Shown here: positions 5,896-34,690 of the stretch, one piece after another
Numbering within the stretch: position 1 is the stretch's first letter
Layout of the letters: each line of letters starts with the position of its first letter
Origin: Ahrensia kielensis DSM 5890
Lineage (GTDB): Bacteria > Pseudomonadota > Alphaproteobacteria > Rhizobiales > Rhizobiaceae
DNA length: 64,000 bases
Assembly: GCF_000374465.1 (NCBI RefSeq)
Contig: NZ_KB894531.1
Coordinates: 1 to 64,000, forward strand
Reading direction: 5' to 3'
Position numbers and translations under genes: made by a program
Notes under the pieces: generated by a model
What the model was told of the DNA's origin: nothing
Database searches by the model: none
What the model saw: only the letters and a program-made list of their open reading frames with translations

Positions 5896-5912
5896 GTTGG
5901 CAGCCACCAATT

Positions 5913-6902: not shown

Positions 6903-7011
6903 TTTATTCTCCGAAAACGCGGCATAAAGCCACCGGATTAAACCAGTTAATGCTGTCTAATGAAGATTGTCTAGGATTTGAAGCACAAAGTCGATTTTCA
7001 ATGACAAGTAT

Positions 7012-7052
7012 TTATAAAAAAACCGGCGAGAATGATAATTCTCGCCGGTTTT
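7012..7052 (-). terminator. Strong intrinsic terminator after the kbp-like gene
   Basis: A perfect 15-bp inverted repeat (7019-7033 and 7038-7052) with a 4-base loop. On the minus strand it is followed by a run of T residues. It lies just past the stop of the LysM/BON gene, where an intrinsic terminator is expected. Confidence 0.88.
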
Positions 7053-7067
7053 CAATGTTTTTAGAAA

Positions 7068-15350: not shown

Positions 15351-15372
15351 AGTACCGTATCCTTATTCTGTC

Positions 15373-17154: not shown

Positions 17155-17178
17155 GTAAATTCCTATATTTCTATTTGT

Positions 17179-18210: not shown

Positions 18211-19241
18211 GATGATGCACCGGATACGCGGCGTTGCAGCGCATTGAGAATTACCGCCATCATAATAATCGCCCCAGTTGCAAAATCTTGCCAAAAGATA
18301 TCGATACGAGCAAGATTGAGAAAGTTTCGGATCAAAACAATGATGACGACACCCAGAACAGTGCCGAGAACTGTTCCACGACCACCCATCAGGGACGTGC
18401 CACCTATAACAACGGCTGCAATGACTTCAAATTCAAGCCCTTGGCCCGAGTTGGGTGAAACTGCGCCAATACGCATAACATTCAGTACACCAGCTATAGA
18501 CGCGCAAAGGCCAACAATTGCAAAGCACTTGAGCTTGACGCGTGTGGTGTTAATCCCTGCCAGTCTAGCAACAGTTGGATTCGCACCAACGGAATAGACC
18601 TTGCGCCCGAAAGCCATTCGATTCATCAGAAACCAGCCAGCGATATAGATTAACACAGCGACCAAGAATACTGCTGGCAAACGTAATCCAGCGTCCACAA
18701 AGGGAATTGGAATTTCAACTGGGCGGGAAACTCCAAAAGCTTTCAATCCTTCGGGAATACCAGCGATGGGTTGACCGCCTGTAACGACAAGAGTCAACGA
18801 TCTTGCTATCATCAGCATTCCCAAGGTTACGATAAAGCTTGGTATTAAGAATTGCGTTACGAGAAGCCCACTTAGTATCGCAAGCGCAGGTCCAACGACG
18901 AGCCCGCCACCAATCCCAACTACAATTAGAAGGATCGGATGAGCTTCCCAAAAAGGGCTCGCGTAAGCTGCTGGCATGACGACTAAAACCCATCCCATAA
19001 CAGCCCCCGTCAGCCCTACCAACGAACCGACTGAAATATCAAACTCTCCGTTTATAATTATGATGGTCATGCCAAGGGCTACAATTAGTAAAGTAACCAT
19101 TTGACCCAACAGGTTTGAAATATTCACAGCAGATAAAAACCTAGGGTTCATGCCGTAAATAGTGCCGGAGAGAATGAGTAAAACCAAAATCAATTGTATT
19201 ATATTCAGATTCCTGCGGCCAAAAGATATGAGGTAATTCAA
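18207..19241 (-). CDS. Sugar ABC transporter permease (RbsC-like)
   Basis: A 344-residue inner-membrane permease of the ribose/autoinducer-2 family with eight to ten hydrophobic helices. The family loop EFEVIAAVVIGGTSLMGGRG lies near residue 265, where the ATPase docks. The start is a TTG whose last two bases overlap the ATPase stop (TTGA); no other start gives the full first helix. It is sandwiched between ATPase and aldo/keto reductase with overlaps at both ends, showing co-translation. It probably imports L-fucose or a related sugar. Confidence 0.92.
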   Translation of the reverse strand: MNYLISFGRRNLNIIQLILVLLILSGTIYGMNPRFLSAVNISNLLGQMVTLLIVALGMTIIIINGEFDISVGSLVGLTGAVMGWVLVVMPAAYASPFWEAHPILLIVVGIGGGLVVGPALAILSGLLVTQFLIPSFIVTLGMLMIARSLTLVVTGGQPIAGIPEGLKAFGVSRPVEIPIPFVDAGLRLPAVFLVAVLIYIAGWFLMNRMAFGRKVYSVGANPTVARLAGINTTRVKLKCFAIVGLCASIAGVLNVMRIGAVSPNSGQGLEFEVIAAVVIGGTSLMGGRGTVLGTVLGVVIIVLIRNFLNLARIDIFWQDFATGAIIMMAVILNALQRRVSGASS

Positions 19242-20851
19242 AGTATCATCTCCACTGATGTATCAGACGTTTGCGTTGAGGAAATTGCTTCAAACGAAGC
19301 GTTAGCGGCGGCTGTTAATTCCTCCTGAGAAAATCCGGGTTTATCTAGACGTGCGACGATACGACCACGGAAAAGGACAAGCGCACGATCAGCGATATCC
19401 GCCAGTTCTTCCATTTCACTGGTTAGAATGATAACGGCGCATCCTTCCGCTGCTTTTTTCAAAATAAGGTCTTTGATGGATTGTTTAGCGCCAATATCGA
19501 CCCCAATTGTCGGTTCATCGAGGATCAGCACACGTGGGTTTGTCATGAACCATTTGGCGAGCATCACTTTTTGTTGGTTGCCACCAGACAACGTTGAAAG
19601 CGCTGCCAATGGACCCGAAGCCTTGACAGAAAGCAGCTTCATTTGACTTTCCACCTCAGTTTTCAGCGCCTCCGAATTGAGGACACCAAAGCGTGACGAG
19701 AAACGGTCAAGGGACGGTAAACCGATATTATCAGAAATTGAAAAATCAACAATTGCACCTGTACGATGGCGGTCATTTGTGACAAGCCCAACACCCGCAT
19801 TCATAGCGTCAGCTGGACTGTCCCATTGGACAATTTTCTCGTCCATCACGATTTCTCCACCCGTGGCGCGGTAGTCTGGATCAGCGAAAATAGTGCGTGC
19901 TAGATCACCTAGGCCTGCGCCAATCAATCCACCAATTCCAAGAATTTCTCCGGGCTTAATGTCAAAGCTTATTTCATTAAGACGATGGCCAAGCGAAAGG
20001 TTTCGCAACTCTAAAACGGGGGCACTAGTAATTTGATTTTCTGCACTGCGCTTCATGGAGGTCCGCAATGTGCCTCCAATCATCGTGCGAATTGCTTCCG
20101 ACATGGTAATGTTGTCAGTTGATCCCTGCCATGCTGTTTTACCATCACGCAAAACTGTGAGTCGTTGAGTGTAATTGAATACTTCATTCAAATAGTGCGA
20201 AATATAGAGAACACTTACACCAGTCGCCGCTATGCCCTTCACCTGCGTGATCAGTACATCCACTTCATCCGCGGTCAGTGAGGATGTCGGCTCGTCCAAT
20301 AGCAGAACGCGTGGTTTTTGACGCATAGCGCGCGCCAGTTGTACCATCTTACGTAAATCGGTTGGCAAGGATCCAAGCACAGCTTTTGGCGAAATTTCGA
20401 GGTGAAGCTTATCTAGCAGTGTGCGTGCTTCAGCTTCCATTGCCTTCTGATCAAGTAATGGTCCGCGCATGATCTCAGCATTCAGGAAGATATTCTCTAC
20501 CACTGTCATGCTTTCAATTAAGTTCACGTCTTGATGTACAGTGATGAGCCCAGATGCAATTGCAACTTCTGGCGACCACCCTGTAATCGGAGAACCGCTA
20601 ATTTCAATTTCACCAGAGTCGGGACGATAAACGCCACAAAGGGTTTTAACCAAAGTAGATTTCCCTGCACCGTTTTCGCCGATCAACCCGTGGATTTCAC
20701 CGGGTTCTAATGTGATCGAAACGTCATCAAGCGCCTGAGTCGCTCCGAAGGACTTACTTATATTGTGCGCTCTAAGCATACCGGAATGAGTTTTGGTCTG
20801 GGGGGGAAGCCCAATTCCCCCCCGCCCGTCCATTTTAGCTGACAAATTCAT
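19238..20851 (-). CDS. Sugar ABC transporter ATPase with two ATP-binding domains
   Basis: A 537-residue RbsA/MglA-type ATPase. The first cassette has Walker A GENGAGKST near residue 58 and Walker B LLLDEPTSSL near 188. The second has the degenerate Walker A (GLIGAGLGDLA) typical of the family, an intact LSGGNQQK signature and LILDEPTIGV. The ATG overlaps the binding-protein stop as ATGA. The N-terminus has about 23 extra residues before the first strand; a second ATG at residue 24 is a possible start. It energises uptake through the adjacent permease. Confidence 0.93.
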   Translation of the reverse strand: MNLSAKMDGRGGIGLPPQTKTHSGMLRAHNISKSFGATQALDDVSITLEPGEIHGLIGENGAGKSTLVKTLCGVYRPDSGEIEISGSPITGWSPEVAIASGLITVHQDVNLIESMTVVENIFLNAEIMRGPLLDQKAMEAEARTLLDKLHLEISPKAVLGSLPTDLRKMVQLARAMRQKPRVLLLDEPTSSLTADEVDVLITQVKGIAATGVSVLYISHYLNEVFNYTQRLTVLRDGKTAWQGSTDNITMSEAIRTMIGGTLRTSMKRSAENQITSAPVLELRNLSLGHRLNEISFDIKPGEILGIGGLIGAGLGDLARTIFADPDYRATGGEIVMDEKIVQWDSPADAMNAGVGLVTNDRHRTGAIVDFSISDNIGLPSLDRFSSRFGVLNSEALKTEVESQMKLLSVKASGPLAALSTLSGGNQQKVMLAKWFMTNPRVLILDEPTIGVDIGAKQSIKDLILKKAAEGCAVIILTSEMEELADIADRALVLFRGRIVARLDKPGFSQEELTAAANASFEAISSTQTSDTSVEMIL

Positions 20852-21813
20852 TTGCCTGTCACTTGTGGGTCGTTAGCAAACTCTTCAGCATTTTCGGCAA
20901 TCAAAAGGCGTGTTTCAAGACCAATGAACTCCTGAGTTTCACCACCTGTGATAGCTGCCATCACTTGGTTCAGACCAGTATAGCCCATTGCGTAAGGATC
21001 CTGCACGACAAGGCCGTCAATTTTACCGTCTCGAACCATCTGCCAAGATACTGGATCAAGATCAAAGCCAACTAGCTTGACTTCACCAACACGACCTGCA
21101 CCCTCAAGCGCTGCGTATGCCCCTTGCATAACAACCTGATTAAAGGAAAAGACACCCGCCAAATCGGGTACGGAAACAAGAAGGTCTTCCATCACGTTAC
21201 GACCATTATCAAGCGTCATTGCTGGCGGCATCGCAGCTTCTGGCAAGACCGTTAGACCAAGTTCTTTGGCGCGATCTTCAAATCCCTTCTGACGTAATTG
21301 TGCGTTATCGTTCGTTGGAGCATAGTCGAGCGTGACGACCTTCGCACCAGCAGGAACGATTTTTGCCATCTGCTCCGCTGCAAGCTTGCCCCCAGCGAGG
21401 TTGTCCGTGATCACAAGTGAAGTAATTTCTCCTTTTCGCACACCAATGTCAGTGACTACCACCGGCAAATTTTGCGCGTTGTAAAGGTTGGCAATCGGTT
21501 CACCAACCATGACACTGTCACCAGGGAAGATAAGTAGACCACTGACGCCTTGTGCAAAAAGATCTTCAAGATCATTAACTTGTCGCGTTTTGTCGTCGTC
21601 ACCACCATTGGTTACAATGACTTCGACATCATAACCTTTATCTTTCCATTCCGCGGCAGCTGCCTCTGCTCCATTCACCATCGTTACAAGAAAAGGATTT
21701 GTTCCCCAGAAAACCGAATATCCGATTTTCACGTCTTCTGCAGACGCTGCTGATCCCATTGCCAAAATTGTTCCAGCAGCTATTAAGCCTTTTAGTTTTG
21801 ATATCCTCATCAT
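20848..21813 (-). CDS. Periplasmic sugar-binding protein (Peripla_BP_4)
   Basis: A 321-residue secreted binding protein of the RbsB type. A signal peptide is evident: basic MMRISKLK, a hydrophobic core, then GSAASAED, with cleavage expected near residue 25. The mature part shows the two-lobed pattern with VNDLEDLFAQGVSGLLIFP and NDNAQLRQKG hinge segments. GGAGGAGA lies 7 bp before the ATG. It is second in the operon after the SDR (43-bp gap). The ligand is inferred to be L-fucose or a related sugar from the enzymes. Confidence 0.92.
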   Translation of the reverse strand: MMRISKLKGLIAAGTILAMGSAASAEDVKIGYSVFWGTNPFLVTMVNGAEAAAAEWKDKGYDVEVIVTNGGDDDKTRQVNDLEDLFAQGVSGLLIFPGDSVMVGEPIANLYNAQNLPVVVTDIGVRKGEITSLVITDNLAGGKLAAEQMAKIVPAGAKVVTLDYAPTNDNAQLRQKGFEDRAKELGLTVLPEAAMPPAMTLDNGRNVMEDLLVSVPDLAGVFSFNQVVMQGAYAALEGAGRVGEVKLVGFDLDPVSWQMVRDGKIDGLVVQDPYAMGYTGLNQVMAAITGGETQEFIGLETRLLIAENAEEFANDPQVTGK

Positions 21814-21856
21814 AGTTCTCCTCCAGAGTTTTGATTAAGTCATGAGTAATAAGCGA

Positions 21857-22588
21857 CTAGATTGTCCAACCGCCGTCTATTGCTAGTGCTTGGCCCGTCA
21901 TGAAGCCGGCCTTTGGATCGGCTAGATAAACGGCCAGCGCTGCAATTTCATCTGCTCGTCCAAGTCGCCCCATGGGTTGACGTGCGACAAACGCATTTCG
22001 CTGTGTTTCGATGTCAGGGCCGCTTTCTGCGATACGTTCAGCTAAAGAGGGAGTTTCAACCGTGCCAGGACATATGCAGTTTGAACGGATACCCTGCCCG
22101 ACAAAATCCGCAGCAATCGACTTAGAAAGACCAAGTAATGCTGCCTTAGTGGTTCCATAAATAGCTCTATTTGGAACGCCTTTGATGGCGCTTGCGACAG
22201 AGGAAATGAATATCAACGATCCGCCGTCACGAGAGATCATTCCGGGCAGAACAGCCTGTGCCATGTGCATGGCAGAACGGACGTTTAGGTCAAAGTTGAA
22301 GTCATATTGGGCGCCAGTGACATCCAGTATTGTCCCACTGTCGACATATCCCGCACAATGGCAAAGGACGTCAGTAGAACTGGTATAATCTTTAAGTAAA
22401 TCAATTGCCGAGGGATCGGTAACGTCGAGCGCGAATGTCTCAACATTGCTTTTGCCTTGATAATCATCAAGCAAAGCTGCATCCCGATCAGTAGCTATCA
22501 CTTTATGGCCCGCAGCCAGCAAGCCATCAACGATTGCGCGTCCGATACCCTGTCCTGCGGCGGTAACCAAACAATTCTTACCTTCCAT
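21857..22588 (-). CDS. SDR, probable 2-keto-3-deoxy-L-fuconate dehydrogenase
   Basis: A 243-residue classical SDR with AAGQGIGRA near residue 11, HCAG near 84, a catalytic serine in SSVASAIKG and YGTTKAA as YxxxK. It is first in the operon that continues through the importer, aldo/keto reductase, dehydratase and FAH genes, 27 bp downstream of a LacI-type palindrome. The proposed reaction is NAD-dependent oxidation of 2-keto-3-deoxy-L-fuconate to the 2,4-diketo acid. It resembles the SDR at 8890-9636 in motif segments throughout. Confidence 0.9.
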   Translation of the reverse strand: MEGKNCLVTAAGQGIGRAIVDGLLAAGHKVIATDRDAALLDDYQGKSNVETFALDVTDPSAIDLLKDYTSSTDVLCHCAGYVDSGTILDVTGAQYDFNFDLNVRSAMHMAQAVLPGMISRDGGSLIFISSVASAIKGVPNRAIYGTTKAALLGLSKSIAADFVGQGIRSNCICPGTVETPSLAERIAESGPDIETQRNAFVARQPMGRLGRADEIAALAVYLADPKAGFMTGQALAIDGGWTI

Positions 22589-22614
22589 AATTCAATACCT
22601 CTTTAGAATTCTCA

Positions 22615-22630
22615 ATTTTAACGTTAAAAT
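22615..22630. promoter_or_regulatory. LacI-type operator palindrome, catabolic operon
   Basis: ATTTTAACGTTAAAAT is a perfect 16-bp palindrome, 27 bp before the start of the SDR gene. The same 16 bases occur once more, directly before the lacI-type gene. A central CG flanked by symmetric arms is typical of LacI-family sites. Confidence 0.82.
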
Positions 22631-22654
22631 TTTTTCTTTAAAAAAAAGATCTGC

Positions 22655-23539
22655 TCAAATGCGATAAATTCTTTCTGCGGATTGACCAAATAAATTGTCC
22701 CGCTCTGTAGAACTCAAACCAGAAGTAATATTGCAATAAGCCGACCATAGAACATCGAACGATGAATACATTCGGTCCACGGGGAAATTACTCGCGAACA
22801 TGCATCGCTCTGAACCAAATAAGTTGATTGTTTCGAGAACAATAGGGCGGATCATTTTTTCGGTCCATGTATGAAACATCATACCAAGGCCTGAAATTTT
22901 GACTGATACGTTTTCGTATTGCGCAAGTTCTGACATTCCGGTGCGCCAACATTCCAACGACTCGGCATCATGACCAGTGGGCATACCCGTATGATTGAGA
23001 ATTATAGAGGTGCCGGCATTCTGCTGTGCCAGTCTCGTAGCGGCAGTCATTTGAGCCGGATAAATCTGAAGGTCAAAAGATAGGCCAAGCGCACCAAGCA
23101 TTTCAAATCCCTCGATCCAACGTGGGTTTTCCATAAATTCTTGAGGCGCGAAATTCAATCGCTCATCCACGTGGGTGTTTAGGATTTGACGGATTCCGCG
23201 TACGCGATTGTTTTTCTTTTGTGCGTCTAGCTTCTCCACAACTGAGTCGATCGAGAGATCGCAATAAGCTACAATCGCGTCTGGCTGCCCGCCCTTTTCG
23301 GCGATATTCTCAAGCCAAACTGTTTCGTCGACATCAAGACCAGCATCAACAGCCGCCTCGATATGTACTGATTTCACAATCTCGAACTTACCGCTCTCAG
23401 AAAGGTAATCATCAAGCTTATAAGTTTTGCGAATGGAGCTATTGTCTCCAAAGACACCTTCGGACGTTTCTGTCGTTAACCATGGATAAGACAACTCGTC
23501 CAAATCCCAGAGATGAAAATGCGGATCAATGATCTTCAT
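22655..23539 (-). CDS. Amidohydrolase, probable L-fuconolactonase (COG3618)
   Basis: A 294-residue TIM-barrel amidohydrolase of the COG3618 lactonase group. The metal-binding PHFHLWD motif lies at residues 6-12, HIEAAVD near 75, LNHTGMP near 190 and SNFPVDR near 250, all expected for sugar lactonases. It would hydrolyse L-fuconolactone produced by the aldo/keto reductase. The ATG at 23539 overlaps the lacI stop as ATGA and gives the MKIIDPHFH start usual in the family. An upstream ATG would lie inside lacI. Confidence 0.92.
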   Translation of the reverse strand: MKIIDPHFHLWDLDELSYPWLTTETSEGVFGDNSSIRKTYKLDDYLSESGKFEIVKSVHIEAAVDAGLDVDETVWLENIAEKGGQPDAIVAYCDLSIDSVVEKLDAQKKNNRVRGIRQILNTHVDERLNFAPQEFMENPRWIEGFEMLGALGLSFDLQIYPAQMTAATRLAQQNAGTSIILNHTGMPTGHDAESLECWRTGMSELAQYENVSVKISGLGMMFHTWTEKMIRPIVLETINLFGSERCMFASNFPVDRMYSSFDVLWSAYCNITSGLSSTERDNLFGQSAERIYRI

Positions 23540-24576
23540 GTGGAAGAGCCCTGTAAAAATGGCCCAACAGTACTGTTTCGCACAACAAGTGAACATGACT
23601 GGAGTTCGTGTATGCTTGACCCTGCCGATTCAGGTTTTTCAATCTTTTTTATCAAGCGTTCAATTGCCTGGCGGGCAAGACTCGCAGGATGGAAAGAGAT
23701 ACTGGAAAGGCTAACTCCTGGTAACGATGACATTTCCATGTCATCAAAACCGACAATCGCAACATCTTGCGGAATTTTAAGTCCTCTCGCAGCCAACTCG
23801 TCCATCGCGCCGTAAGCCATAATATCACTTGCACAGAAAATTGCGGTAAAAGGAAAACCGCTATCCAGCATCAGTTGACAAGCCGCACGCCCACCTTCTC
23901 TAGTATAATTCCCACGTACAACTAGTTCCGGAATTACCGCCAGTCCGGCCTTGTCTATCCCGTCAACAAATCCTTGATACCGGCTCCTCGCAGTCGAATT
24001 ATTGACGCCCGCTATAAATCCGATACTGCGATGACCACAATCGATAAGATGCTCGGTCGCTAAGCGACCCCCCTCCCGATTGTCAGCTTCGAAAACGTCA
24101 CAAACGCTCTTGGAGCTGCGATTCAAAATTTCCACAACAGGTACATCTAACTTAGTGATCACGCGACTTGCGGCGCCCTCCATCTCTTCTGTGTCAGAAG
24201 GTGAAATCAAAATACCAGCCACGCTGTGCTCAATAATCGTGTTGACGACACTAAGTTCAACATTAACATCACGCTCTGTCACAGCCATCATCACCGTGTA
24301 TCCTTGCCGCTCTGCTTCACGCACGACTGCCTGCGCAACTTCAGCATACATAGAGTTGGTCATACTAGGCACTACAAGGCCGATCAGACTAAACTTGTTT
24401 GTTTTCAAGCTGCGCGCCATGGCATTTCGGCGATACCCCATTTTCTCCAGATGCTGGAGAACAAGCTTACGGGTTTCTTCACGAACTACCGATCGGTTGT
24501 TGAGAACATTTGAGACTGTCTGATGCGACACCCCAGCGGAGCGGGCAACTTCTGCAAGGGTAACTTTCCGTTTCAA
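23536..24576 (-). CDS. LacI-family transcriptional regulator
   Basis: A 346-residue repressor with the N-terminal LacI helix-turn-helix (VTLAEVARSAGVSHQTVSNVL, residues 4-24 region) and hinge helix, followed by a sugar-binding periplasmic-protein-like domain. It is translationally coupled to the lactonase. A perfect 16-bp palindrome lies 19 bp before its ATG and an identical one before the main operon, so it probably represses both units and responds to a pathway sugar or lactone. Confidence 0.94.
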   Translation of the reverse strand: MKRKVTLAEVARSAGVSHQTVSNVLNNRSVVREETRKLVLQHLEKMGYRRNAMARSLKTNKFSLIGLVVPSMTNSMYAEVAQAVVREAERQGYTVMMAVTERDVNVELSVVNTIIEHSVAGILISPSDTEEMEGAASRVITKLDVPVVEILNRSSKSVCDVFEADNREGGRLATEHLIDCGHRSIGFIAGVNNSTARSRYQGFVDGIDKAGLAVIPELVVRGNYTREGGRAACQLMLDSGFPFTAIFCASDIMAYGAMDELAARGLKIPQDVAIVGFDDMEMSSLPGVSLSSISFHPASLARQAIERLIKKIEKPESAGSSIHELQSCSLVVRNSTVGPFLQGSST

Positions 24577-25041: not shown

Positions 25042-27006
25042 TTAAATGACTCTATCATTTCCACCATCCACCGAGATTTGCGCACCTGTTGTTGCGCGTA
25101 ACACCGTATCGCAAAATGTAACGACAGCATTGGCAACATCAACCGAGCCTATTTCGCATCCTAAAAGGTTGCGCGTTTTGTACTCCTCAACTGTCATGCC
25201 ATACCGTTTGGCAGACCTTTTAAGTGCATCTTCAGTCCAGATTCCAGTGTCAAAAACTGCATCTGGATGTAGCGCATTGACGCGAATGCCTTCGGGGGCC
25301 AATTCTAATGCGGCCACACGCATCAACTGAGTGAGCCCCGCCTTCGCTACAGAGTAGGCCGCAGCTCCTGGGCCCGGGGCTGTCACATTACGTGAGGCCA
25401 TAAATACTACTGCAGGGTCAACACCATGTCGCAGATAAGGAACCGCTTGTTTTAAAGTTTTCCGGTGGGCGGTTAAATTAATAGCAAGACTTTGATCCCA
25501 CGTTGCATCATCTAATTTCTCGATCCATTGACCGCTTTTGAAGATGCCCGCGTTCAGCACAAGGTGGTCGATTCCGCCATATTCTAAAACGATATTCTTA
25601 AGAGCTTCTGCGACTGCAGCCTCATCATTGAGATCAAGCACCTTGCCCTCGAACCCCAAGCGGTTCATTTTCTCGCCTACCTTTGGGTCAAGATCTAATC
25701 CAATTACGACGGCGCCGGCCTCGGCCAGTGCCATCGCTGACGCGGCCCCGATACCTGAAGCGGCACCTGACACAACGGACACTTTTCCGGCGAGGCGGGC
25801 GTCAGGTTTTTGACGTCGTAACTTGGCTTGTTCCAACTCCCAATATTCGAGATCCCGCAGATCTTGTTCACTCAAACCCTGCCATCCACCAAGTTTATGA
25901 GCGTGTAGCATCGCTCGCAAGGTAGTCGCGCCTACATCTGCAGAGATAGCAGACCGTTTGAGATTAACACCAAAACTGCGTGCATTGCCGTCGGCAAAAA
26001 TAGCCCAATGCGGATGCGATGGAAGCATCGTTAGCGTGTCATCATTGGCACGTTTGAAATAGGCAAGATATTCCTCTGCGAACGCATCAAGCCCCACACC
26101 GTCTTCGTCAACCATAGCAGGGAAGGGCTTATTGTGGATCACATGCTCGGGGGTCAATGTCCCGTTTCGCAGCAGCTTCCCAATTTCATCGGTGAGCTCA
26201 GATGGGATTGCCCCTGACGGACGTGAAATAACAGCTTTAGCCGCCAAGTCTGAAACGCCTTTTCTCAGTTTTGCGACCAGTAGAGGATCTTGTGCAGGCG
26301 GGTCGGAAAGCGCAAGATCACCGTTGGTTTTGATCAACCATTGCTCGGCTTCATCCACAATACTGACCATACGTTCGTAAGCTTGCTTCGCATCTTCATC
26401 GTAGGTAAATATGCCGTGGTTTTCGAGGATGATTGCCTCGAATTGGCCAAAGTCATACTCTTCCAATGCGGCTTTGAACTGTTTAGCGAGGTCAAAGCCA
26501 GGCTTCACGTAAGGCAACACGAGAACGCGAGAACCATATAAATCGCGAAATTTATTCGAACCATTTGGGCTGTTTGAAATGGTCAAAATCGCGTCCGCGT
26601 GGGAATGATCGACATATTTGAACGGAACAAGTGCATGCACAATCGCCTCGATTGAAGCCGCGGCAGCGGATGCATCTAGGCGAGCACGCAAACATTCGTT
26701 GACCATATCAGGGTCGCTTAAGCTGTCTAGACCCGCCAATTTCAACAATGGTTTCATTTCTAGGGCCGTAAACCCTTCGGTGCCCATTTTAGCGAGATCA
26801 AAGCCGCTCGCCTTCACCCAGATAATATCGTGAACGTCACCAAATTGATCCGTGTGAGTGGACTTAACGGAGGTATTCCCCCCGCCGTGCAACACCATCT
26901 TCGGCTCAACTCCTATCAATTTTGAGGTATAGGCTCGCAGTTCGACATCTGTCGTGCATGCTGCTGCATCAGGATCGTTCCAAAGGGATTTCACGTTACT
27001 CTCCAT
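25042..27006 (-). CDS. Bifunctional class II aldolase / short-chain dehydrogenase (RhaD-RhaE-like fusion)
   Basis: A 654-residue fusion. The N-terminal class II (AraD/RhaD-type) aldolase domain has HGGGNTSVK near residue 40, the zinc pair in VDHSHAD near 150 and ENHG near 210. From about residue 408 a classical SDR follows with SGAASGIG, catalytic serine in MASRNVT and YSVAK. Related fusions cleave rhamnulose-1-phosphate and oxidise the resulting lactaldehyde. No kinase or isomerase gene is near, so the substrate here may differ. It is the last gene of the AraC-linked operon and overlaps the UPF0261 gene by 11 bp. Confidence 0.92.
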   Translation of the reverse strand: MESNVKSLWNDPDAAACTTDVELRAYTSKLIGVEPKMVLHGGGNTSVKSTHTDQFGDVHDIIWVKASGFDLAKMGTEGFTALEMKPLLKLAGLDSLSDPDMVNECLRARLDASAAAASIEAIVHALVPFKYVDHSHADAILTISNSPNGSNKFRDLYGSRVLVLPYVKPGFDLAKQFKAALEEYDFGQFEAIILENHGIFTYDEDAKQAYERMVSIVDEAEQWLIKTNGDLALSDPPAQDPLLVAKLRKGVSDLAAKAVISRPSGAIPSELTDEIGKLLRNGTLTPEHVIHNKPFPAMVDEDGVGLDAFAEEYLAYFKRANDDTLTMLPSHPHWAIFADGNARSFGVNLKRSAISADVGATTLRAMLHAHKLGGWQGLSEQDLRDLEYWELEQAKLRRQKPDARLAGKVSVVSGAASGIGAASAMALAEAGAVVIGLDLDPKVGEKMNRLGFEGKVLDLNDEAAVAEALKNIVLEYGGIDHLVLNAGIFKSGQWIEKLDDATWDQSLAINLTAHRKTLKQAVPYLRHGVDPAVVFMASRNVTAPGPGAAAYSVAKAGLTQLMRVAALELAPEGIRVNALHPDAVFDTGIWTEDALKRSAKRYGMTVEEYKTRNLLGCEIGSVDVANAVVTFCDTVLRATTGAQISVDGGNDRVI

Positions 27007-28222
27007 GTCTTTGTGTCATGAGGTCAACAAGTGTCGCAACCGCAAGATTGATAAAATCCTCATCTTCAGCGTTTGCATCTACGATTGTGACTGGGTTGCT
27101 ACATTGTGCCACGAGGCCTTGCGCCAGTGCCGTATCAGCTGCCGAGTCTTCGAGTGGGCCGCCTGGAACCGAATAACTCGACAATCCGCGATTGGGCACT
27201 AGGATATGCGTGGGACCTGTCGCAACGTTCGTGCGCTCAGCCACAATTGAGGCTAGTTTGATCATTTCATCAACACTTGTGCGCGGAACGAGGATGACCG
27301 GATTGTGATAGGTATAGGCTCGATCTGCGTATGCGCTTGGGAGACTATTGGGAGTGTCAAGCAAAATACCAAGATGATCCGTACCGCCTGGCACAACAAC
27401 TTGTGGCAGCCCAAGCGCGGCAGCAACTGTCAACCGACTCTCATCAGCGGCTCTAATGCCGCCGCCTATGTCATCGACGATATCACCCAAAGCATAGTCG
27501 AACACAGCTTGAATAAGGCCGTCCCGCATCAGTTGTTCCATCGCGCGCCCACCGGACCCCACCGCATGGAACACAATTGTTTCAAACCCTTGTTCGGCAA
27601 ATTTTTCCATAGCTTTCATAGTACCTTGGGTCAAAACCCCAAGGTTTGTGATGCCTATGACAGGTTTGCTAGGATCGAATGAAATTGGTTGATAGGCATT
27701 TGCCATGCCAACTACAGCACCAGCGGCATTCGATACTATTGCGCGGAACAACGGGTTGAGGCCCAGGATATCAGCAACCGAAAACATCATGGTAATGTCT
27801 TTAATTCCGACATAGCCAGATGTGTCTCCCGAGGCCATTGTTGACAGCATTACTTTGGGAAACCCATAGGGCAAAGCTTGCATGACTTGGGTGCAATTGG
27901 CAGTGCCCTGAGTGCCGCCAAGGCCAATAATGCCGTGAATTTCCCCTGACGTTAACAGATCCAATATCCTTCGTGTGGCCCCGTCGACCATAACTTTGGA
28001 TGCGGTTTCTCGGCTAGGATTGGCGCGCAAATCGACAAGAGAGGTACCACCTAACTCAGCAATTTCATTTGCGGGAATATCGGCCGCAAGTTTTGAAACG
28101 CCAACCACTCCGATATCAATTAAAAAAGGCTTCGCGCCGAGCCGGCTAATTTCCTCAGCTAGGAATGCACATTCGTCAGATTTTGTATCCAGCGTTGCGA
28201 GTATGGCAATGGTTTTAGTCAT
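26996..28222 (-). CDS. Tm-1-like ATP-binding protein (UPF0261)
   Basis: A 408-residue member of UPF0261, the family of the N-terminal half of plant Tm-1. The N-terminus has the ATLDTKSDECAFL segment, and a central glycine-rich GLGGTQGTANC stretch and VPGGTDHLGI are visible, probably part of the ATP site. No enzymatic activity is established for bacterial members. It is co-translated with the PEP-hydrolase-family gene (8-bp overlap) and the aldolase fusion. A role in sugar-acid metabolism is inferred from the operon. Confidence 0.88.
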   Translation of the reverse strand: MTKTIAILATLDTKSDECAFLAEEISRLGAKPFLIDIGVVGVSKLAADIPANEIAELGGTSLVDLRANPSRETASKVMVDGATRRILDLLTSGEIHGIIGLGGTQGTANCTQVMQALPYGFPKVMLSTMASGDTSGYVGIKDITMMFSVADILGLNPLFRAIVSNAAGAVVGMANAYQPISFDPSKPVIGITNLGVLTQGTMKAMEKFAEQGFETIVFHAVGSGGRAMEQLMRDGLIQAVFDYALGDIVDDIGGGIRAADESRLTVAAALGLPQVVVPGGTDHLGILLDTPNSLPSAYADRAYTYHNPVILVPRTSVDEMIKLASIVAERTNVATGPTHILVPNRGLSSYSVPGGPLEDSAADTALAQGLVAQCSNPVTIVDANAEDEDFINLAVATLVDLMTQRHGE

Positions 28223-29087
28223 TTTTGACCACCTTTTGAAAGCCTAGTGATCTAAACTCTGATGCTGCAGCGGTTACAGCGCGTTCAATCGGTAGACGCT
28301 CGGTGGAAGAACCTGTCCAAAAACCATGTCCGCTAGTGTGCTCAAGCATGTATTGCGCGTCTTCGGGCGTTTCCATAGCAGCACCATGCCCAACAAGAAT
28401 ACTGTCGGGTGATACCTTGCGAATAGCTTGATAGACGTCTTCGCTTTCTGCAGCGGTTTCTTGGATAGTTGTACCGTTATCGTAACCGGTGAGACCACCT
28501 TTGGTGGTGCCCGCATGATAGCAAAATATGTCCGGTTGCGCCTGTTCGGCCAGCGCTATGCCGTCTTCTTTGGTGAAGGCCAATCCCACGGTGACCATGC
28601 CCATTTCCCGAGCCAAAACGAGCATATCAATCTCATTTTGGAGCGTTATACCTGCGCTTGTAAGTACTTGGAATATTTCACTGTCTTTATCGACATAACT
28701 AATGGAAGGACCAATGTTCGATACCGCATTTACCCCCATGCGCATGCAGTCTTCAAGAATCATGCGCATGTCTTTTAAGGGGTCGTTCGCGTTCAAACAG
28801 GCACAGACAAAGGCCTTACCAGACAGGGCTGGCATGACGTCTTCACGGGTGTAATCCAGTGTTTGCTTGTTCGAGTCCAAAATGGGCCACATCATTGACA
28901 TCGTGCCCATCCCGTTTGACCGCAAACGTGCGCCCGAGAAGGTATTGATGCAATCAATGCCTTCTCTTTCAAGAATTTTAGCGACGAGGCCACTGCCTGC
29001 GCTGGCTATCATGATTGGATTTTTCGCTTCTACCTTGCGACGCAGGTTTGAGCGAATTGTCTCTGATGAAATCCGTTTGGTAATCAT
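28215..29087 (-). CDS. PEP-hydrolase-like TIM-barrel protein (PF09370 type)
   Basis: A 290-residue TIM-barrel protein of the phosphoenolpyruvate-hydrolase-like family, which corresponds to the C-terminal half of plant Tm-1. Typical segments are SAGSGLVAKILER near residue 30, NVGPS-like NIGPSIS near 123 and CYHAGTTKGGLTG near 192. The family fold resembles PEP mutase/isocitrate lyase, suggesting action on a 2-oxo acid or its phosphate. CGGAG precedes the ATG. The gene overlaps UPF0261 by 8 bp, indicating a matched pair. Confidence 0.86.
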   Translation of the reverse strand: MITKRISSETIRSNLRRKVEAKNPIMIASAGSGLVAKILEREGIDCINTFSGARLRSNGMGTMSMMWPILDSNKQTLDYTREDVMPALSGKAFVCACLNANDPLKDMRMILEDCMRMGVNAVSNIGPSISYVDKDSEIFQVLTSAGITLQNEIDMLVLAREMGMVTVGLAFTKEDGIALAEQAQPDIFCYHAGTTKGGLTGYDNGTTIQETAAESEDVYQAIRKVSPDSILVGHGAAMETPEDAQYMLEHTSGHGFWTGSSTERLPIERAVTAAASEFRSLGFQKVVKND

Positions 29088-29111: not shown

Positions 29112-29858
29112 TTATGGGCGTAGAAATGTATCGAGGGCCGTGTTCAAACCCGATTGGAAAGCTGCAGGCGCGACGTATTTTGAAGGCAGTTCGCAAAGCG
29201 TAGCTGATGGAATTTCACTCGCCCAAGCTCGCGCTATATCAAGTGGGTGCAAGGGATCGTTCGGCGTTGCGACGACCAGTGTCTTCGCAGCGATGGCTTT
29301 AAGATCACCAAGCGAAGCTAATGGCGTGTCTTCAATGATTTGAGTGAGAACAGGGGCATTGTTACGAGAGTTTGGGCGATTGATTGCACCCAAGATTGAT
29401 TTAGCAGCAGCTGGGTTCGTGCGAGTTAAATTGAAAAAAAATGGATCTTTATTTAGACGATCAATAGCGTCTTGTTCAGGCCCTTGAGATAGCCAAACGC
29501 CAATTTCATGGATAATTTTCAAGTTTTTTGGATGAGTTTTATCCATCCAAGCTGGCCTAAGCAAGATTAAGCCATTCACGAGATCAGGGCGCTTTAAAGC
29601 CATTTTTATAGCGATACCGGCTCCCATGGAAATACCGGCCAGTGTGACGCTCTCGACCTTACGTTGGTCGAGAGCGTCGAGAGCAAGGGCGGCAAACCTT
29701 TCAAAGCTTGCCCTACCGTTTTCACGGGGACGATCGCCGTGGCCTGGCATGTTCATCGCGATCTGCTTATCAGAGAAATACGCGTCAAACATGCCATGAA
29801 ATTGGTCACACGTCGCTCCGAGCCCATGTAAAACCATCAACTGTGGCTCACTGTTCAT
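29112..29858 (-). CDS. Alpha/beta hydrolase lacking the usual catalytic histidine
   Basis: A 248-residue alpha/beta-hydrolase-fold protein. The oxyanion segment HGLGAT lies at 11-16, the nucleophile elbow GISMG at 75-79 with Ser77, and an acid in ATPNDPLHP near 200. The C-terminus, where the histidine is normally found, reads ELPSKYVAPAAF without any His. Either the histidine comes from elsewhere or the reaction is not a classical hydrolysis. It lies between binding protein and PEP-hydrolase-like genes, 24 bp before the latter. A lactone or ester substrate would fit, but this is a guess. Confidence 0.8.
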   Translation of the reverse strand: MNSEPQLMVLHGLGATCDQFHGMFDAYFSDKQIAMNMPGHGDRPRENGRASFERFAALALDALDQRKVESVTLAGISMGAGIAIKMALKRPDLVNGLILLRPAWMDKTHPKNLKIIHEIGVWLSQGPEQDAIDRLNKDPFFFNLTRTNPAAAKSILGAINRPNSRNNAPVLTQIIEDTPLASLGDLKAIAAKTLVVATPNDPLHPLDIARAWASEIPSATLCELPSKYVAPAAFQSGLNTALDTFLRP

Positions 29859-29925: not shown

Positions 29926-30966
29926 TCAATCCTTGGGTGACCAAGTGGCCATCGACGTGATTTCGGGTTGGGACATAAGATCATTGTCCAATTCACCGGC
30001 ATCGCGTTTGGCAATGTAGCTATCGATCTCCCACGGCACAGCCGATGCAATATTTTCTGCTGTCAGCATAGGTTGAACGTTGTAAACATGCCGCGGAAAG
30101 TCCTCACCGGCGATGTGACGTTCAACCATTTGGAAAACTAAATCGGCTTCAAGGGTTGGTGGGTTGGCGACGGTACCAAGCATGGTGCCTTCTTTCATCC
30201 AATCCCAACCGATTTCTTTACCGTTGCTGGAGTAAAGTGATATTTCACCTGCTCGCCCCGCCTCGTCGAGAGCTTGGATGGCACCAGCCATCATTTCTTC
30301 GTTCATCGCATAGATCACACTAAAGTCTTTACCAGAGGCAAGATAATCTTGCGTAACTTCTAGACCGCCATTGCGGCTCCAGCCGCCAGAGCTTTCGAGA
30401 ACAATGGTATTGTTGCCTCCAGATTCTGCTACTCCAGCTTCGAACCCTTGATGGATCATTTCAGCAATACCTTGACCGTAGACGCCTTCGATCAATGCGA
30501 TGTTTTCCCCGGGATGCGCAGCACCGATTGCTGTGCCTATGGTGTGCCCCATCCCTATCCAGTCGCCACTGACCATGCCTGTTGGAATGTGATAGCCCGC
30601 AGGCGACGGAAGGGCCGCAACGAAGAAAATTGGTATACCAGCTTCGGTTGCGCGTTCTGCAGCTTGCGTCCCGCTTTCAGCATTGCCGGATAGCAAAACG
30701 ATTATATCGACTCCTCGGGCGATAAAGTCTTCGACATTAGCCAGCTCTTTGGAAGGGCTGTATTCCGAGTTGGCGACTGTGACTTCGTGACCGGCAGATT
30801 CGGCGAGTTTGGTGAACATTTCCGCTTCGGTCCGGTAATAAATATCTGGTCCAGCAAGAACAAAGCCGATTTCTTCAGCCTGAACTGCTTGCCCTGACAC
30901 TGCTGTCAAAAGCCCCGCGGCAATCACTCCCCATTTCAATGCGTTTGTTTTTGTTTTGATAGACAT
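29926..30966 (-). CDS. Periplasmic sugar-binding protein of the second importer
   Basis: A 346-residue secreted binding protein of the RbsB type. The signal peptide starts with basic MSIKTK, has a hydrophobic core and ends in GQAVQAEE. The mature part shows YSPSKELANVEDFIARGVD and YAMNEEMMAGAIQAL, standard for Peripla_BP_4. The ribosome-binding site AGGAGGAAG is near ideal. It shows little resemblance to the 20848-21813 protein beyond the family, so the ligand differs. Confidence 0.91.
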   Translation of the reverse strand: MSIKTKTNALKWGVIAAGLLTAVSGQAVQAEEIGFVLAGPDIYYRTEAEMFTKLAESAGHEVTVANSEYSPSKELANVEDFIARGVDIIVLLSGNAESGTQAAERATEAGIPIFFVAALPSPAGYHIPTGMVSGDWIGMGHTIGTAIGAAHPGENIALIEGVYGQGIAEMIHQGFEAGVAESGGNNTIVLESSGGWSRNGGLEVTQDYLASGKDFSVIYAMNEEMMAGAIQALDEAGRAGEISLYSSNGKEIGWDWMKEGTMLGTVANPPTLEADLVFQMVERHIAGEDFPRHVYNVQPMLTAENIASAVPWEIDSYIAKRDAGELDNDLMSQPEITSMATWSPKD

Positions 30967-30993: not shown

Positions 30994-31992
30994 TTAAGAT
31001 TTATCTTTGGTACGGCTACCTGCGATAACCGCTCCGATGACGACCACGCCCAGCATGATGTATTGCCAGAATGTCGAGACACCGATGATGTTCATTGAGT
31101 TCGAGATTATGCCGAGGAATAAGACGCCGAGAAAACTTCCAAAGACTGTCCCGCGTCCTCCAGCTAGTGCTGCCCCGCCAACAACTGTTGCTGCGATTGT
31201 TTCCAGCTCCAATCCGGCAGCCATATTGGGACTGCCAACGCCGATGCGTGACATCAAAATCATAGCAGCAAGACCTACGAGCAGTCCGTGTAGAGCATAG
31301 ACCTGCACTTTGAATTTCAAGACGTTGATGCCCGCTAAATGTGCAGCTTCATTGTTTTCACCCACAGCATAAAGCTGCCGTCCGAAAACTGTGTGACGTA
31401 GAATGAGCCATGCAATGATGCAAACTCCAAGAAAGATGAAAACTGGAATGGGAATTTCTAACCAGCGACCACGCCCAAGAGCCTGAAATTTGCGGTCTAG
31501 AGGAATTTCTGCACCGTTAGTCATTAACAATGCAATGCCACGATAAATCGCCATAAGACCAAGCGTTACAATGAACGGTTCGAGCTTTAGCTTCGAGATC
31601 ACATAACCCGAAAGCGCTTGAAGAGAGACACACAATGTTAATCCAGCAAGCACAATCACAGCGATAGGCATGTCTAAATTTAATAAAGTGGCCATCACAC
31701 AAGCCGCTAATGATACAAGGAAACCAACAGATAAATCGATCTGCCGTGCGATAATCATCAACGTCATACCGATGGTCACGATGCCTGCGACAGAAACCTG
31801 CAGCATCACGTTTCGAATGTTGTAAAGCGATAAAAACCTTGGCTCAATCAGCGCGATTATCACTATATAGGCTATTAACGCGATCAAAAGTGGACCGCTG
31901 CGATTATCTATAAACTTGTTCCAAAGAAGACGCAGAGCTGATTGAGCGTTTTGCGCCTGGGCGTTGGTCGTTGTGTGGCTAAGGTCAGGCAA
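30994..31992 (-). CDS. Sugar ABC transporter permease of the second importer
   Basis: A 332-residue RbsC-type permease with many hydrophobic helices and the loop ETIAATVVGGAALAGGRG near 250. It starts at a TTG preceded by GGAGG, and no ATG is available before the first helix. It lies 11 bp after the ATPase and 27 bp before the binding-protein gene, in an order (ATPase-permease-binding protein) different from that of the fucose-type locus. Confidence 0.91.
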   Translation of the reverse strand: MPDLSHTTTNAQAQNAQSALRLLWNKFIDNRSGPLLIALIAYIVIIALIEPRFLSLYNIRNVMLQVSVAGIVTIGMTLMIIARQIDLSVGFLVSLAACVMATLLNLDMPIAVIVLAGLTLCVSLQALSGYVISKLKLEPFIVTLGLMAIYRGIALLMTNGAEIPLDRKFQALGRGRWLEIPIPVFIFLGVCIIAWLILRHTVFGRQLYAVGENNEAAHLAGINVLKFKVQVYALHGLLVGLAAMILMSRIGVGSPNMAAGLELETIAATVVGGAALAGGRGTVFGSFLGVLFLGIISNSMNIIGVSTFWQYIMLGVVVIGAVIAGSRTKDKS

Positions 31993-32003: not shown

Positions 32004-33482
32004 CTAGAGTGCAGCTGAAATGATATTGTGTTCGCTGATATCAGCGCCGGCTAATTCGCATGTAATTTGCCCGTTTTTCATAACGGCGACTCGATCACAT
32101 AGGCCGACCACTTCTGACAACTCAGAGGATGCCATAAGAACAGCGCAACCAGCTTCGATGAGGGTTTGAATTTCGCGGTAAACTTCTTGTTTTGCGCCGA
32201 TATCAATGCCACGGGTTGGCTCATCAAAAAGATAAATCTGAGGATGTGTCGCCATCCATTTCGCCAAAATGACTTTTTGCTGATTACCGCCGGAAAGATT
32301 TTTGACGGAGTGCTCGATGGAACCAACCTTGATCCGTAACTTCGTCACCATTTCTTTGGCCATAGAGCGAGCTTTGGGCCAATTGACTAGTTGTCCCTTA
32401 CGCTTGGTTTCATATGGAATGTGAATGTTTGCGAGACAGGATTGATTAAGGAATAAGCCGTCAATTTTGCGATCTTCTGTGATAAGGCAAATGCCAGCAT
32501 CAATAGCATCTTTGGGGCTTTTGAACTTTTGGACTTTGCCCTGAACACGTAACATTCCGCTGGTGATCGGCTTGCTACCAAAAATAGCGCTCAAGAGTTC
32601 AGTTCGACCGGCACCGACAAGGCCAGCAAGACCAAGTATTTCCCCTCGGTTCAGCGTCAAGCTTACGTCGTTAACCCCCGGGGCAACAATATTTTCGATT
32701 TCCAGAGCGATTTCGCTGGTTGTACTGCAGACGTGGTGGCAGACCTCTTCAACTGTACGGCCGATCATATCCTTGATCAGAGCCTGCTCTTCAACGTCAT
32801 TGATTTGCTTGTCGGATATCGTTTTACCATCTCGCAAAACAACCACACGGTTCGCTATACGGCGTACTTCTTCTAAGTGGTGAGAAATAAAGATTATACC
32901 AACGCCACTATCCCTCAATCGCTCAACAACTTTAAAAAGAAGCTCGACCTCATGCTTGCCAAAACTAGCAGAGGGTTCATCCATGATCAGGATCTTAGCG
33001 TCTGAATTTACCGCGCGCGCAGTTTCTACTATCTTTTGTTGCGCTCCCCCAAGCTCACTGACGACAGCATCAATTGGAACATCCGCGCCCAACATCTTCA
33101 TTATGTCGCGGGCTCGTTCCATCATAAGTGGACGGTCGATCAACCCATGCTTCGTACGTAGCTCACGCCCGACAAAAAGGTTTTCATAGACCTTCAAATG
33201 CTGAAATAGGATATTTTCTTGGTAGATAGTTGAAATGCCATATTCGAGTGCCAGCCTCGGAGTGAGTTCGGGGTAAGTAACCCCGTTCAAAACGATCTGG
33301 CCGCTGTCTGGCGCATGCGCTCCTGACATTGTTTTAACAAGTGTTGATTTGCCCGCGCCGTTTTCTCCACATAGCGCAAGAACCTCCCCGGCATTTAAGT
33401 GGAAACTGATACCATCAAGCGCTTTGTTAGCTCCAAAGTGTTTGACGATGTTACGCAAAATAAGGATGGGCGTATCAACCAT
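32004..33482 (-). CDS. Sugar ABC transporter ATPase of the second importer
   Basis: A 492-residue two-cassette ATPase. The first cassette has GENGAGKST near residue 38 and ILIMDEPSASFG; the second has the degenerate GLVGAGRTEL, LSGGNQQK and YLFDEPTRGI. The ATG at 33482 follows GGAAG and gives a normal MVDTPILILRNI start. The frame extends to a TTG at 33545, which I consider less likely. It is the first gene of the AraC-linked operon. Confidence 0.92.
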   Translation of the reverse strand: MVDTPILILRNIVKHFGANKALDGISFHLNAGEVLALCGENGAGKSTLVKTMSGAHAPDSGQIVLNGVTYPELTPRLALEYGISTIYQENILFQHLKVYENLFVGRELRTKHGLIDRPLMMERARDIMKMLGADVPIDAVVSELGGAQQKIVETARAVNSDAKILIMDEPSASFGKHEVELLFKVVERLRDSGVGIIFISHHLEEVRRIANRVVVLRDGKTISDKQINDVEEQALIKDMIGRTVEEVCHHVCSTTSEIALEIENIVAPGVNDVSLTLNRGEILGLAGLVGAGRTELLSAIFGSKPITSGMLRVQGKVQKFKSPKDAIDAGICLITEDRKIDGLFLNQSCLANIHIPYETKRKGQLVNWPKARSMAKEMVTKLRIKVGSIEHSVKNLSGGNQQKVILAKWMATHPQIYLFDEPTRGIDIGAKQEVYREIQTLIEAGCAVLMASSELSEVVGLCDRVAVMKNGQITCELAGADISEHNIISAAL

Positions 33483-33552
33483 GTGATGCTTCCATCTTCT
33501 GGTCACACTGAGGTGTCGACGGTGCGAAAAGAGAAAACTTCTCAATCTCCAT
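33475..33552 (-). CDS. Possible 25-residue leader ORF upstream of the ABC ATPase
   Basis: ATG at 33552 follows a very strong GGGAGGATCTT and opens a 25-codon frame that ends in TGA at 33475, overlapping the ATPase start at 33482 by 8 bp. The peptide (MEIEKFSLFAPSTPQC and nine more) matches no family known to me. The layout suggests a leader coupling translation to the ATPase, but it may be a chance frame. Confidence 0.35.
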   Translation of the reverse strand: MEIEKFSLFAPSTPQCDQKMEASHG

Positions 33553-33679
33553 AAGATCCTCCCAAACCTTAAAAAAAATCAAACTGATGGGAGACAGGAT
33601 GCTTCATGTCTATTTCGCTGTCTTGTCGGATTTAATTTTGGATGATAGTACAAGTATTCTCTGGGAGGAGGAGAGTGCC

Positions 33680-34690
33680 ATGGAAGATCAAAATCCAGCC
33701 ATTTTTCAGGCTGATGGGAGTGAGCATACTGCTGATGCATGCGAAGATTATAGAAGCGCGATTGAAAATGGAGACCTTCGAGGTGGCGCATGGGCACGGG
33801 GACAATATCCTGGAAAATCATTAGATAACAATCTATTGGATGGGATTTGCGCCATTGGATATTGGGACTGCGATCGCAACCAAGATTGGTTTGTAAAATC
33901 CCATTTCAATGAAGGCATTGAAATAACCATGGCGTTGAATGGTACCGTTGGCTTCGAAACAGGGGGGAAGGCAGAAACTTTGACGAGAGGACGGCTTGCT
34001 CTAACAAGTCCTTGGCATGAACACTCGCTTGGCGGCCCATACGTTTCTGCAAGTCGAACGGTTTTTATAATCTTGGATGTTGGGGTTCGAAGGCCGAACA
34101 GCACTTGGGTATGGCCCGATTGGATTTTGGCATCCGACGTTGAAAAACAAACTTTGGCGCAACAGATCTTGCATAATCATTCGCCTGTCCGGCTCGGAAC
34201 ACCCGAAATGATTTTTGCTATGGAACAAATTTATGAGCTGCTGACTAAGGGGGAGATTGAAAAAAATGCATCAGCAATGGCTGTGTATGTCAATCTTGTG
34301 TTCAAAGGGCTCTCGGAAGTGCTTGATTTCCAATCCGATTCCGATCTGAATTTAGATGAAAAGCATATGACCATCGACGTCTTTGCGAAAGGGCTACAGC
34401 AGCATCTGTCACACGATTGGCGACTTGAAGACATGGCGAAACAATGCGCAATGTCTCGGTCGCAGTTTAGTGCACTTTTTAAAGAAGTAACGAATAAATC
34501 ACCAATCGAATATTTAAATGAACTTCGGCTTGAAAGCGCAGCGAAACAACTCAAAGAAACGAAAACAAAAGCGATAACAGATATTGGGTTTGAAACAGGT
34601 TTTGGGTCGAGCCAATATTTTAGTCGCAAGTTTTCAGAACACTATGGAATGTCTCCGCGGGCTTATAGACACCAAATTGAACCGGCTTAG
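33680..34690 (+). CDS. AraC-family transcriptional regulator
   Basis: A regulator of about 336 residues. The N-terminal part carries a cupin-like ligand domain; the C-terminal 100 residues form the AraC double helix-turn-helix (LEDMAKQCAMSRSQFSALF and ITDIGFETGFGSSQYFSRKF). It is divergent from the second importer operon, so it is the likely activator. The frame continues to 33587, but ATG at 33680 is preceded by GGGAGGAGGAG and is chosen. About 200 bp between this start and the ATPase start would hold both promoters. Confidence 0.9.
   Translation: MEDQNPAIFQADGSEHTADACEDYRSAIENGDLRGGAWARGQYPGKSLDNNLLDGICAIGYWDCDRNQDWFVKSHFNEGIEITMALNGTVGFETGGKAETLTRGRLALTSPWHEHSLGGPYVSASRTVFIILDVGVRRPNSTWVWPDWILASDVEKQTLAQQILHNHSPVRLGTPEMIFAMEQIYELLTKGEIEKNASAMAVYVNLVFKGLSEVLDFQSDSDLNLDEKHMTIDVFAKGLQQHLSHDWRLEDMAKQCAMSRSQFSALFKEVTNKSPIEYLNELRLESAAKQLKETKTKAITDIGFETGFGSSQYFSRKFSEHYGMSPRAYRHQIEPA

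Follow-up and report, generated by a model that had tools for sequence, protein, structure and literature searches.

The first 64,000 nucleotides of contig NZ_KB894531.1 of Ahrensia kielensis DSM 5890 (the window) carry, on the minus strand, a gene for a TIM-barrel protein of the PF09370 family and, overlapping it, a gene for a UPF0261 protein, the two families that also make up the plant antiviral protein Tm-1. In trees of both proteins this pair belongs to a clade of its own and is not the nearest counterpart of Tm-1, and in loci of this clade, which come from many phyla, a carbon-carbon (C-C) lyase is found nearby much more often than in control loci. We propose, with moderate confidence, that the pair and the RhaD-like aldolase encoded next to it form a route for a small carbohydrate, in which the UPF0261 protein would be a kinase, the TIM barrel its partner and the aldolase the enzyme that releases dihydroxyacetone phosphate (DHAP). 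That bacteria hold the two halves of Tm-1 as separate, co-evolving genes was already published in 2016 (PMC5028733) and is not new; the present analysis adds the division into clades, a controlled comparison of the C-C-lyase context, a homologue solved with its ligand and an assignment that can be tested.

The two families and their pairing

Profile searches put both genes far over the Pfam cut-offs, in agreement with the families named in the original prediction, which had been made from the sequence alone. The UPF0261 protein (26996-28222) matches PF06792 over residues 3-178 (195.2 bits, cut-off 27) and PF23189 over residues 186-402 (189.9 bits, cut-off 27), and the TIM barrel (28215-29087) matches PF09370 over residues 11-280 (193.7 bits, cut-off 33.8). 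Sequence matches of the UPF0261 protein include 9mpy (203 bits) and Tm-1 (186 bits). Its predicted model (predicted local distance difference test, pLDDT, 88.5, with residues 130-151 below 50) has the fold of the Tm-1 N-domain (3wrw, Z 38.4, root mean square deviation (rmsd) 4.0, 369 aligned residues) and aligns with 9mpy at Z 32.8 (rmsd 7.6, 377 aligned), while the TIM-barrel model (pLDDT 87.1) has the fold of 2p10 (Z 33.6, rmsd 2.1, 267 aligned).

Yang et al. (2016, PMC5028733) report that bacteria, archaea and fungi as a rule encode UPF0261 and TIM barrel in different genes, that UPF0261 is present in 491 of the 504 bacterial genomes in which they met the TIM barrel, and that the two co-evolve, with correlated distances. 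In our sample of 289 genomes of the class Alphaproteobacteria, PF09370 is over cut-off in 26 and PF06792 in 32, 6 of the latter being without PF09370. The association is thus more than chance, since all 26 genomes with PF09370 also have PF06792 over cut-off and the two genes are mostly closely linked: by coordinates read by eye, 23 pairs lie within about 600 bp, one is spaced by about 3 kb and two are on different contigs. The genome of A. kielensis has one match to each family, both at the window locus. No single open reading frame with both UPF0261 and PF09370 matches was found in the 48 loci examined. The pairing itself, part of the original prediction, is right, the joint metabolic role that it also proposed is likely, and the 8-bp overlap, with the TIM barrel transcribed first, is confirmed by coordinates and sequence. 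The term "split counterpart" of Tm-1, under which the pair had been described, is misleading, because it suggests that a fusion was taken apart, whereas the same 2016 study infers that plants gained both genes by transfer and that these were then fused in streptophytes.

The arrangement takes other forms elsewhere. One locus (L077:8625-11902) has a UPF0261-TIM barrel-UPF0261 triple on one strand, and in 11 of the 38 UPF0261 open reading frames of the class sample (for instance L073:10169-12460 and L079:7756-9975), by a motif count, UPF0261 follows an ATPase domain of an ATP-binding cassette (ABC) transporter (LivF-like by eye) in one protein; Pfam was run on two of the 11.

A clade of its own

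Relatives of the window UPF0261 protein were sought in genome contigs, and 80 of 180 were kept, most of them metagenome-assembled. Their hosts belong to the Alphaproteobacteria, Planctomycetota, Verrucomicrobiota, Bacteroidota, Rhodothermota, Actinomycetota, Acidobacteriota, Gemmatimonadota and Calditrichota, and include Klebsiella indica. The TIM barrel is present in 68 of these 80 loci. In a UPF0261 tree of 109 sequences, made by a quick method and with long branches for Tm-1 and for the Novosphingobium protein Saro_1862, the window protein and 67 others lie on one side of a branch with support 99, and Tm-1 groups with 21 canonical bacterial rows, again with support 99. The TIM-barrel tree (fasttree, 103 rows) has the same split with support 100. 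The UPF0261 clades are marked by 15 positions, and the mean identity of Tm-1 is 42% to 32 canonical rows versus 28% to the 68 rows of the window clade.

Gene order follows the split. Counting as adjacent the pairs with a gap below 600 bp, the TIM barrel comes first in 56 of 56 window-clade pairs (one locus being counted twice among them) and UPF0261 in 22 of 27 others; of the 21 canonical rows beside Tm-1, 18 have UPF0261 first, two (L087 and L078) the TIM barrel first and one has no TIM barrel near. Over the 83 adjacent pairs the TIM-barrel and UPF0261 distances correlate with r 0.94. Taken separately, the 56 pairs of the window clade give 0.67 and the 27 others 0.75, and in neither group did any of 999 Mantel permutations reach the observed value. 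Host relatedness is still included in these correlations.

A third UPF0261 clade (L099-L105, 7 loci) has no TIM barrel in the fetched stretch. In Klebsiella indica (L122) a window-type and a canonical pair are found about 1.5 kb apart, in company of FucA-type aldolases, a Gfo/Idh/MocA protein and an MFS transporter; a blastn search gave no E. coli homologue of this cluster.

A carbon-carbon lyase in the neighbourhood

The original prediction held that the operon context may be informative, and the neighbour catalogue bears this out. Homologues of neighbouring genes were counted by tblastn at 1e-10 in the 80 loci, 28 of which are shorter than 12 kb. A C-C lyase (aldolase or thiolase) is nearby in 50 of them, on the UPF0261 strand in 40, versus 3 of 46 UPF0261/PF09370 loci outside the clade under the same queries and rule, a contrast that is indicative and carries no probability because members of the clade served as queries, the loci share ancestry and a number of them are short. 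The three control positives (L105, L106 and L108) are all without TIM barrel; in two of them, L106 and L108, UPF0261 has a HAD phosphatase and class II aldolases of the FucA and C16 types as neighbours, and L106 additionally has an FGGY kinase.

The lyases are of several kinds: a RhaD-type aldolase/dehydrogenase in 22 loci (the copy in L150 is cut by the contig end), an LsrF-type thiolase in 17 (a hit on the other strand in L116 was dropped), the class II aldolase C12 in 8 (7 on the opposite strand), FucA in 1, and the class II aldolase C16 in 5, of which the 2 without RhaD enter the union. Two more loci, L144 and L147, have the dehydrogenase half of RhaD alone at a contig end and were not counted. 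Further neighbours are an alpha/beta hydrolase (16 of 80), ribulose-phosphate epimerase (16), ThuA-like proteins (23) and FGGY kinases (6). Sulfatases, ThuA-like and cytochrome/HEAT proteins, which lie near many planctomycete, verrucomicrobial and Bacteroidota loci, were considered as partners and set aside as variable. A literature search, with most subscription journals outside its reach, returned no paper on this operon type, and the C-C-lyase context of this clade was not met in print there.

The probable operon in the window

The genes concerned are as follows.

32004..33545, minus strand: ABC transporter ATPase, sugar type (from the translation only, no profile search; conserved in L109)
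30994..31992, minus strand: ABC transporter permease (BPD_transp_2, 136.8 bits)
29926..30966, minus strand: periplasmic binding protein, sugar-type (Peripla_BP_4, 128.6 bits)
29112..29858, minus strand: alpha/beta hydrolase (Pfam Abhydrolase_1), 24 bp upstream of the TIM-barrel gene
28215..29087, minus strand: TIM-barrel protein PF09370 (PEP_hydrolase-like), 290 aa (Pfam and model)
28215..28222, minus strand: 8-bp overlap of the TIM-barrel and UPF0261 genes, ATGACTAA (sequence)
26996..28222, minus strand: UPF0261 protein (PF06792 and PF23189), 408 aa, proposed ATP-dependent small-molecule kinase (Pfam and model)
25042..27006, minus strand: RhaD-like class II aldolase fused to a short-chain dehydrogenase, 654 aa (Pfam Aldolase_II and adh_short)
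33587..34690, plus strand: AraC-family regulator, divergent (HTH_AraC)

The seven minus-strand genes, from the ATPase through permease, binding protein, hydrolase, TIM barrel and UPF0261 to the aldolase/dehydrogenase, are probably transcribed as one operon. The UPF0261 and RhaD-like genes overlap by 11 bp, and putative ribosome-binding sites precede the TIM-barrel gene (GGAG) and the UPF0261 gene (AGGTGG). The closest relative among the kept loci, that of Pacificibacter marinus (87%), has the same operon gene for gene. The profile scores of the permease are 245 bits to ribose and 238 bits to arabinose permeases versus 150 bits to permeases for autoinducer-2 (AI-2).

Further along, the genes at 14514-24576 resemble a non-phosphorylating deoxyhexose pathway of the L-fucose type, several of them being named from translation only: an FAH-family hydrolase, an IlvD-type dehydratase, an aldo/keto reductase, a sugar ABC transporter, a short-chain dehydrogenase/reductase, a LacI regulator and a lactonase-like amidohydrolase (FuconLaconase 100.5 bits versus a cut-off of 400).

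A proposed route for a small carbohydrate

In the route that we propose, the ABC importer would take up a small carbohydrate, most probably of the deoxy sugar or deoxy-ketose kind; the UPF0261 protein would bind ATP and phosphorylate one of the hydroxyls of this substrate; the TIM barrel would act on the phosphorylated compound; the RhaD-like enzyme would split the phosphorylated ketose into DHAP and an aldehyde, and its dehydrogenase half would oxidise the aldehyde.

The kinase step draws on the closest PDB sequence to the window UPF0261 protein, 9mpy, which is Saro_1862, a UPF0261 protein of Novosphingobium aromaticivorans solved with bound acetovanillone. In this organism a single-component kinase, MarK, is described as initiating the catabolism of acetovanillone (PMC13101465), and from organism, ligand, date and author list Saro_1862 is probably MarK. 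Over the 109 UPF0261 sequences (68 of the window clade), 36 columns are at least 95% identical, including D11-T12-K13, K122, S126-T127, H218, D241 and R262; Saro_1862 and Tm-1 each retain 34 of them, and therefore the chemistry is probably shared and the substrate site different. Public annotation names Tm-1-like proteins "ATP-binding". UPF0261 is likely an ATP-dependent small-molecule kinase. A kinase would also be needed upstream, because RhaD, FucA and LsrF, which release DHAP, act on phosphorylated substrates, and the LsrF match of L153 is indeed over its cut-off. Also in favour of UPF0261 as the kinase, five FGGY-kinase queries gave no match in the 64-kb window, a search confined to this kinase family.

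The window aldolase shares the GNTS, SG, HxH and HG motifs with the true RhaD of the same genome in an alignment, and we take the roles of these residues from FucA and RhaD. It scores 390.1 bits against TIGR02632, below the equivalog cut-off of 567.75, and its substrate is probably not rhamnulose-1-phosphate, judging by this family score. A rhamnose reading of the operon was rejected, as RhaA and the true RhaD (1082 bits, versus 386 bits for the window aldolase in the same search) stand together on C8. Another RhaD paralogue is on C3, beside the one PF01008 gene of the genome. In 21 related genomes the RhaD-profile matches under cut-off (at most 514 bits) include pair-linked copies, and RhaA was found in none of the 21. 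We dropped this last result as a supporting argument; it says little, as a second, true RhaD over cut-off is present in 6 of the 21 in spite of the missing RhaA, so that other isomerase families are to be expected there.

After 2p10, the TIM-barrel model is nearest to 4ml9 (Z 20.4, rmsd 3.2, 235 aligned), whose title describes a TIM barrel with a conserved phosphate-binding site, followed by phosphoenolpyruvate (PEP) mutase, IGPS, methylisocitrate lyase, TrpA and triosephosphate isomerase, tied at Z about 17 to 18. This suggests a resemblance of the predicted model to barrels that bind phosphorylated ligands. Four residues near the C-terminus, S260, E263, R264 and P266, show little or no variation in either alignment and may be part of an anion site. 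The reaction would be of the isomerase, epimerase or lyase type. A kinase-isomerase-aldolase trio serves 5-deoxyribose salvage (PMC6079011), and by analogy an isomerase role of the TIM barrel may complete such a trio. This narrower assignment was not adopted: L120 has, on one strand, TIM barrel, UPF0261, an MtnA-type sugar-1-phosphate isomerase (409 bits, cut-off 279) and the aldolase/dehydrogenase, and as it carries MtnA beside the TIM barrel we keep all three types. With UPF0261 taken as the kinase, followed by MtnA and the aldolase, L120 itself resembles the salvage trio (PMC6079011). MtnA occurs in 3 of the 80 loci, L120, L150 and L181, being in the last two beside the aldolase and divergent from the pair; in the window tblastn gave no MtnA hit, and 14 of 22 genomes searched have genes of its family, PF01008.

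Several observations weigh against this proposal. No C-C lyase was found in 30 of the 80 loci, and 10 of the 50 lyases are on the strand opposite UPF0261. Twelve loci have no TIM barrel nearby, all 12 genomes matching PF09370 elsewhere (11 over cut-off), and the FGGY kinases of 6 loci, all alphaproteobacterial, are in the same cluster, which would make two kinases there. The co-occurrence of TIM barrel and MtnA in L120 is contrary to an isomerase role of the former. Saro_1862 is only 31% identical to the window UPF0261 protein, has an aromatic ketone as ligand, departs from the window clade at 13 of the 15 positions that mark the clades and has a mean identity of 33% to the 32 canonical rows versus 30% to the window clade. 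Beyond their own family, the UPF0261 halves are nearest to dihydroxy-acid dehydratase (Z 11.8, rmsd 5.2, 148 aligned) and are also near LacI/periplasmic binding proteins (Z about 11); no known kinase family is among the matches listed in the fold searches, which excludes nothing.

Alternative readings

The original prediction named 2-oxo acids and PEP as candidate substrates. On such a reading the TIM barrel would be a lyase or hydrolase of the PEP-mutase/isocitrate-lyase type, as the name of its Pfam family invites one to think, and UPF0261 would perform ATP chemistry on the same acid. Foldseek agrees, its matches after 2p10 being methylisocitrate lyase, PEP mutase and relatives (E about 1e-9), but the second structural comparison ties these enzymes with IGPS, TrpA and triosephosphate isomerase and places 4ml9 higher, and next to the pair stand transport proteins of the sugar type and class II aldolases. 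We consider this reading improbable: it finds no direct support, and the surroundings of the pair speak for a route through a phosphorylated (deoxy)sugar. The original prediction is partly supported: it is right as regards families, pairing and the value of the context and likely right as regards a joint metabolic role, whereas the "split counterpart" is misleading and these candidate substrates lack direct support.

An AI-2-like route, in which UPF0261 would phosphorylate a deoxy-diketone as LsrK does before cleavage by an LsrF-type enzyme or aldolase, the window aldolase being a local replacement, appears to us somewhat less probable still. It would account for the LsrF-type thiolase beside UPF0261 in 17 loci, of which the one tested, L153, is over the NCBIfam cut-off (426 versus 297 bits), and for the weak match of the window permease to AI-2 permeases among others; however, this permease scores higher to the ribose and arabinose types, and most LsrF genes are accompanied by a dehydrogenase similar to the one in the RhaD fusion and by ribulose-phosphate 3-epimerase. 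Very unlikely, in our opinion, is a signalling pair without catalysis, in which the TIM barrel would sense a ligand and UPF0261 report the nucleotide state. The family was once called TIM-barrel signal transduction (PMC5028733), and PF09370 is the N-terminal domain of a sigma-54 regulator in L069, but both proteins have many invariant polar residues, the pair is linked to catabolic enzymes and a homologue has been solved with a catabolic substrate. The L069 regulator (5298-7148, 616 aa, with Sigma54_activat and HTH_8) lies between two pairs and is perhaps a sensor for their substrate.

Meaning

Tentatively, and with less confidence than for the sugar route in the window, one may think of UPF0261 and PF09370 as a general two-enzyme catabolic module, a kinase with a phosphate-binding TIM barrel. 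The window clade would then be an undescribed deoxy-sugar route replacing known kinases across many phyla, and plant Tm-1 a two-domain metabolic enzyme with a secondary antiviral role. Nearly every land plant sequenced is reported to have Tm-1-like genes, for which a role beyond virus resistance has been suspected (PMC5028733). Our results link the family of the N-terminal half to a structure solved with its ligand, and the bacterial pair to aldolases that yield DHAP. They raise the concrete question of whether Tm-1 is a small-molecule kinase, and a second one, what the TIM barrel does with the kinase product. Answers would help to name the many genes that are now called "Tm-1-like ATP-binding" and "phosphoenolpyruvate hydrolase family".

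Comparison with known systems

The rhamnose genes resemble the window operon in that RhaD is also an aldolase fused to a dehydrogenase, but the window enzyme is below the RhaD cut-off, and RhaA and RhaD have a locus of their own elsewhere in the genome, on C8. To 5-deoxyribose salvage, or DHAP shunt (DrdK-DrdI-DrdA; MtnA), the likeness lies in the proposed order of events, phosphorylation first and then an aldol cleavage that yields DHAP and an aldehyde, whereas the window has no MtnA, its proposed kinase is UPF0261 and its dehydrogenase is fused to the aldolase. Mll9387 (2p10), a PF09370 protein like the window TIM barrel (28% identity), has a function that is putative only, by its entry title. 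Saro_1862 is a UPF0261 protein with nearly all of the conserved columns; its ligand is an aromatic ketone and MarK is described as single-component (PMC13101465), whereas the window has a two-gene pair. Tm-1 and its plant homologues, finally, are composed of the same two families and Tm-1 retains the conserved columns to the same extent, but they are one fused protein with UPF0261 first, and Tm-1 falls within the canonical bacterial clade of the UPF0261 tree, outside which stands the window pair, with its two genes and its TIM barrel first.

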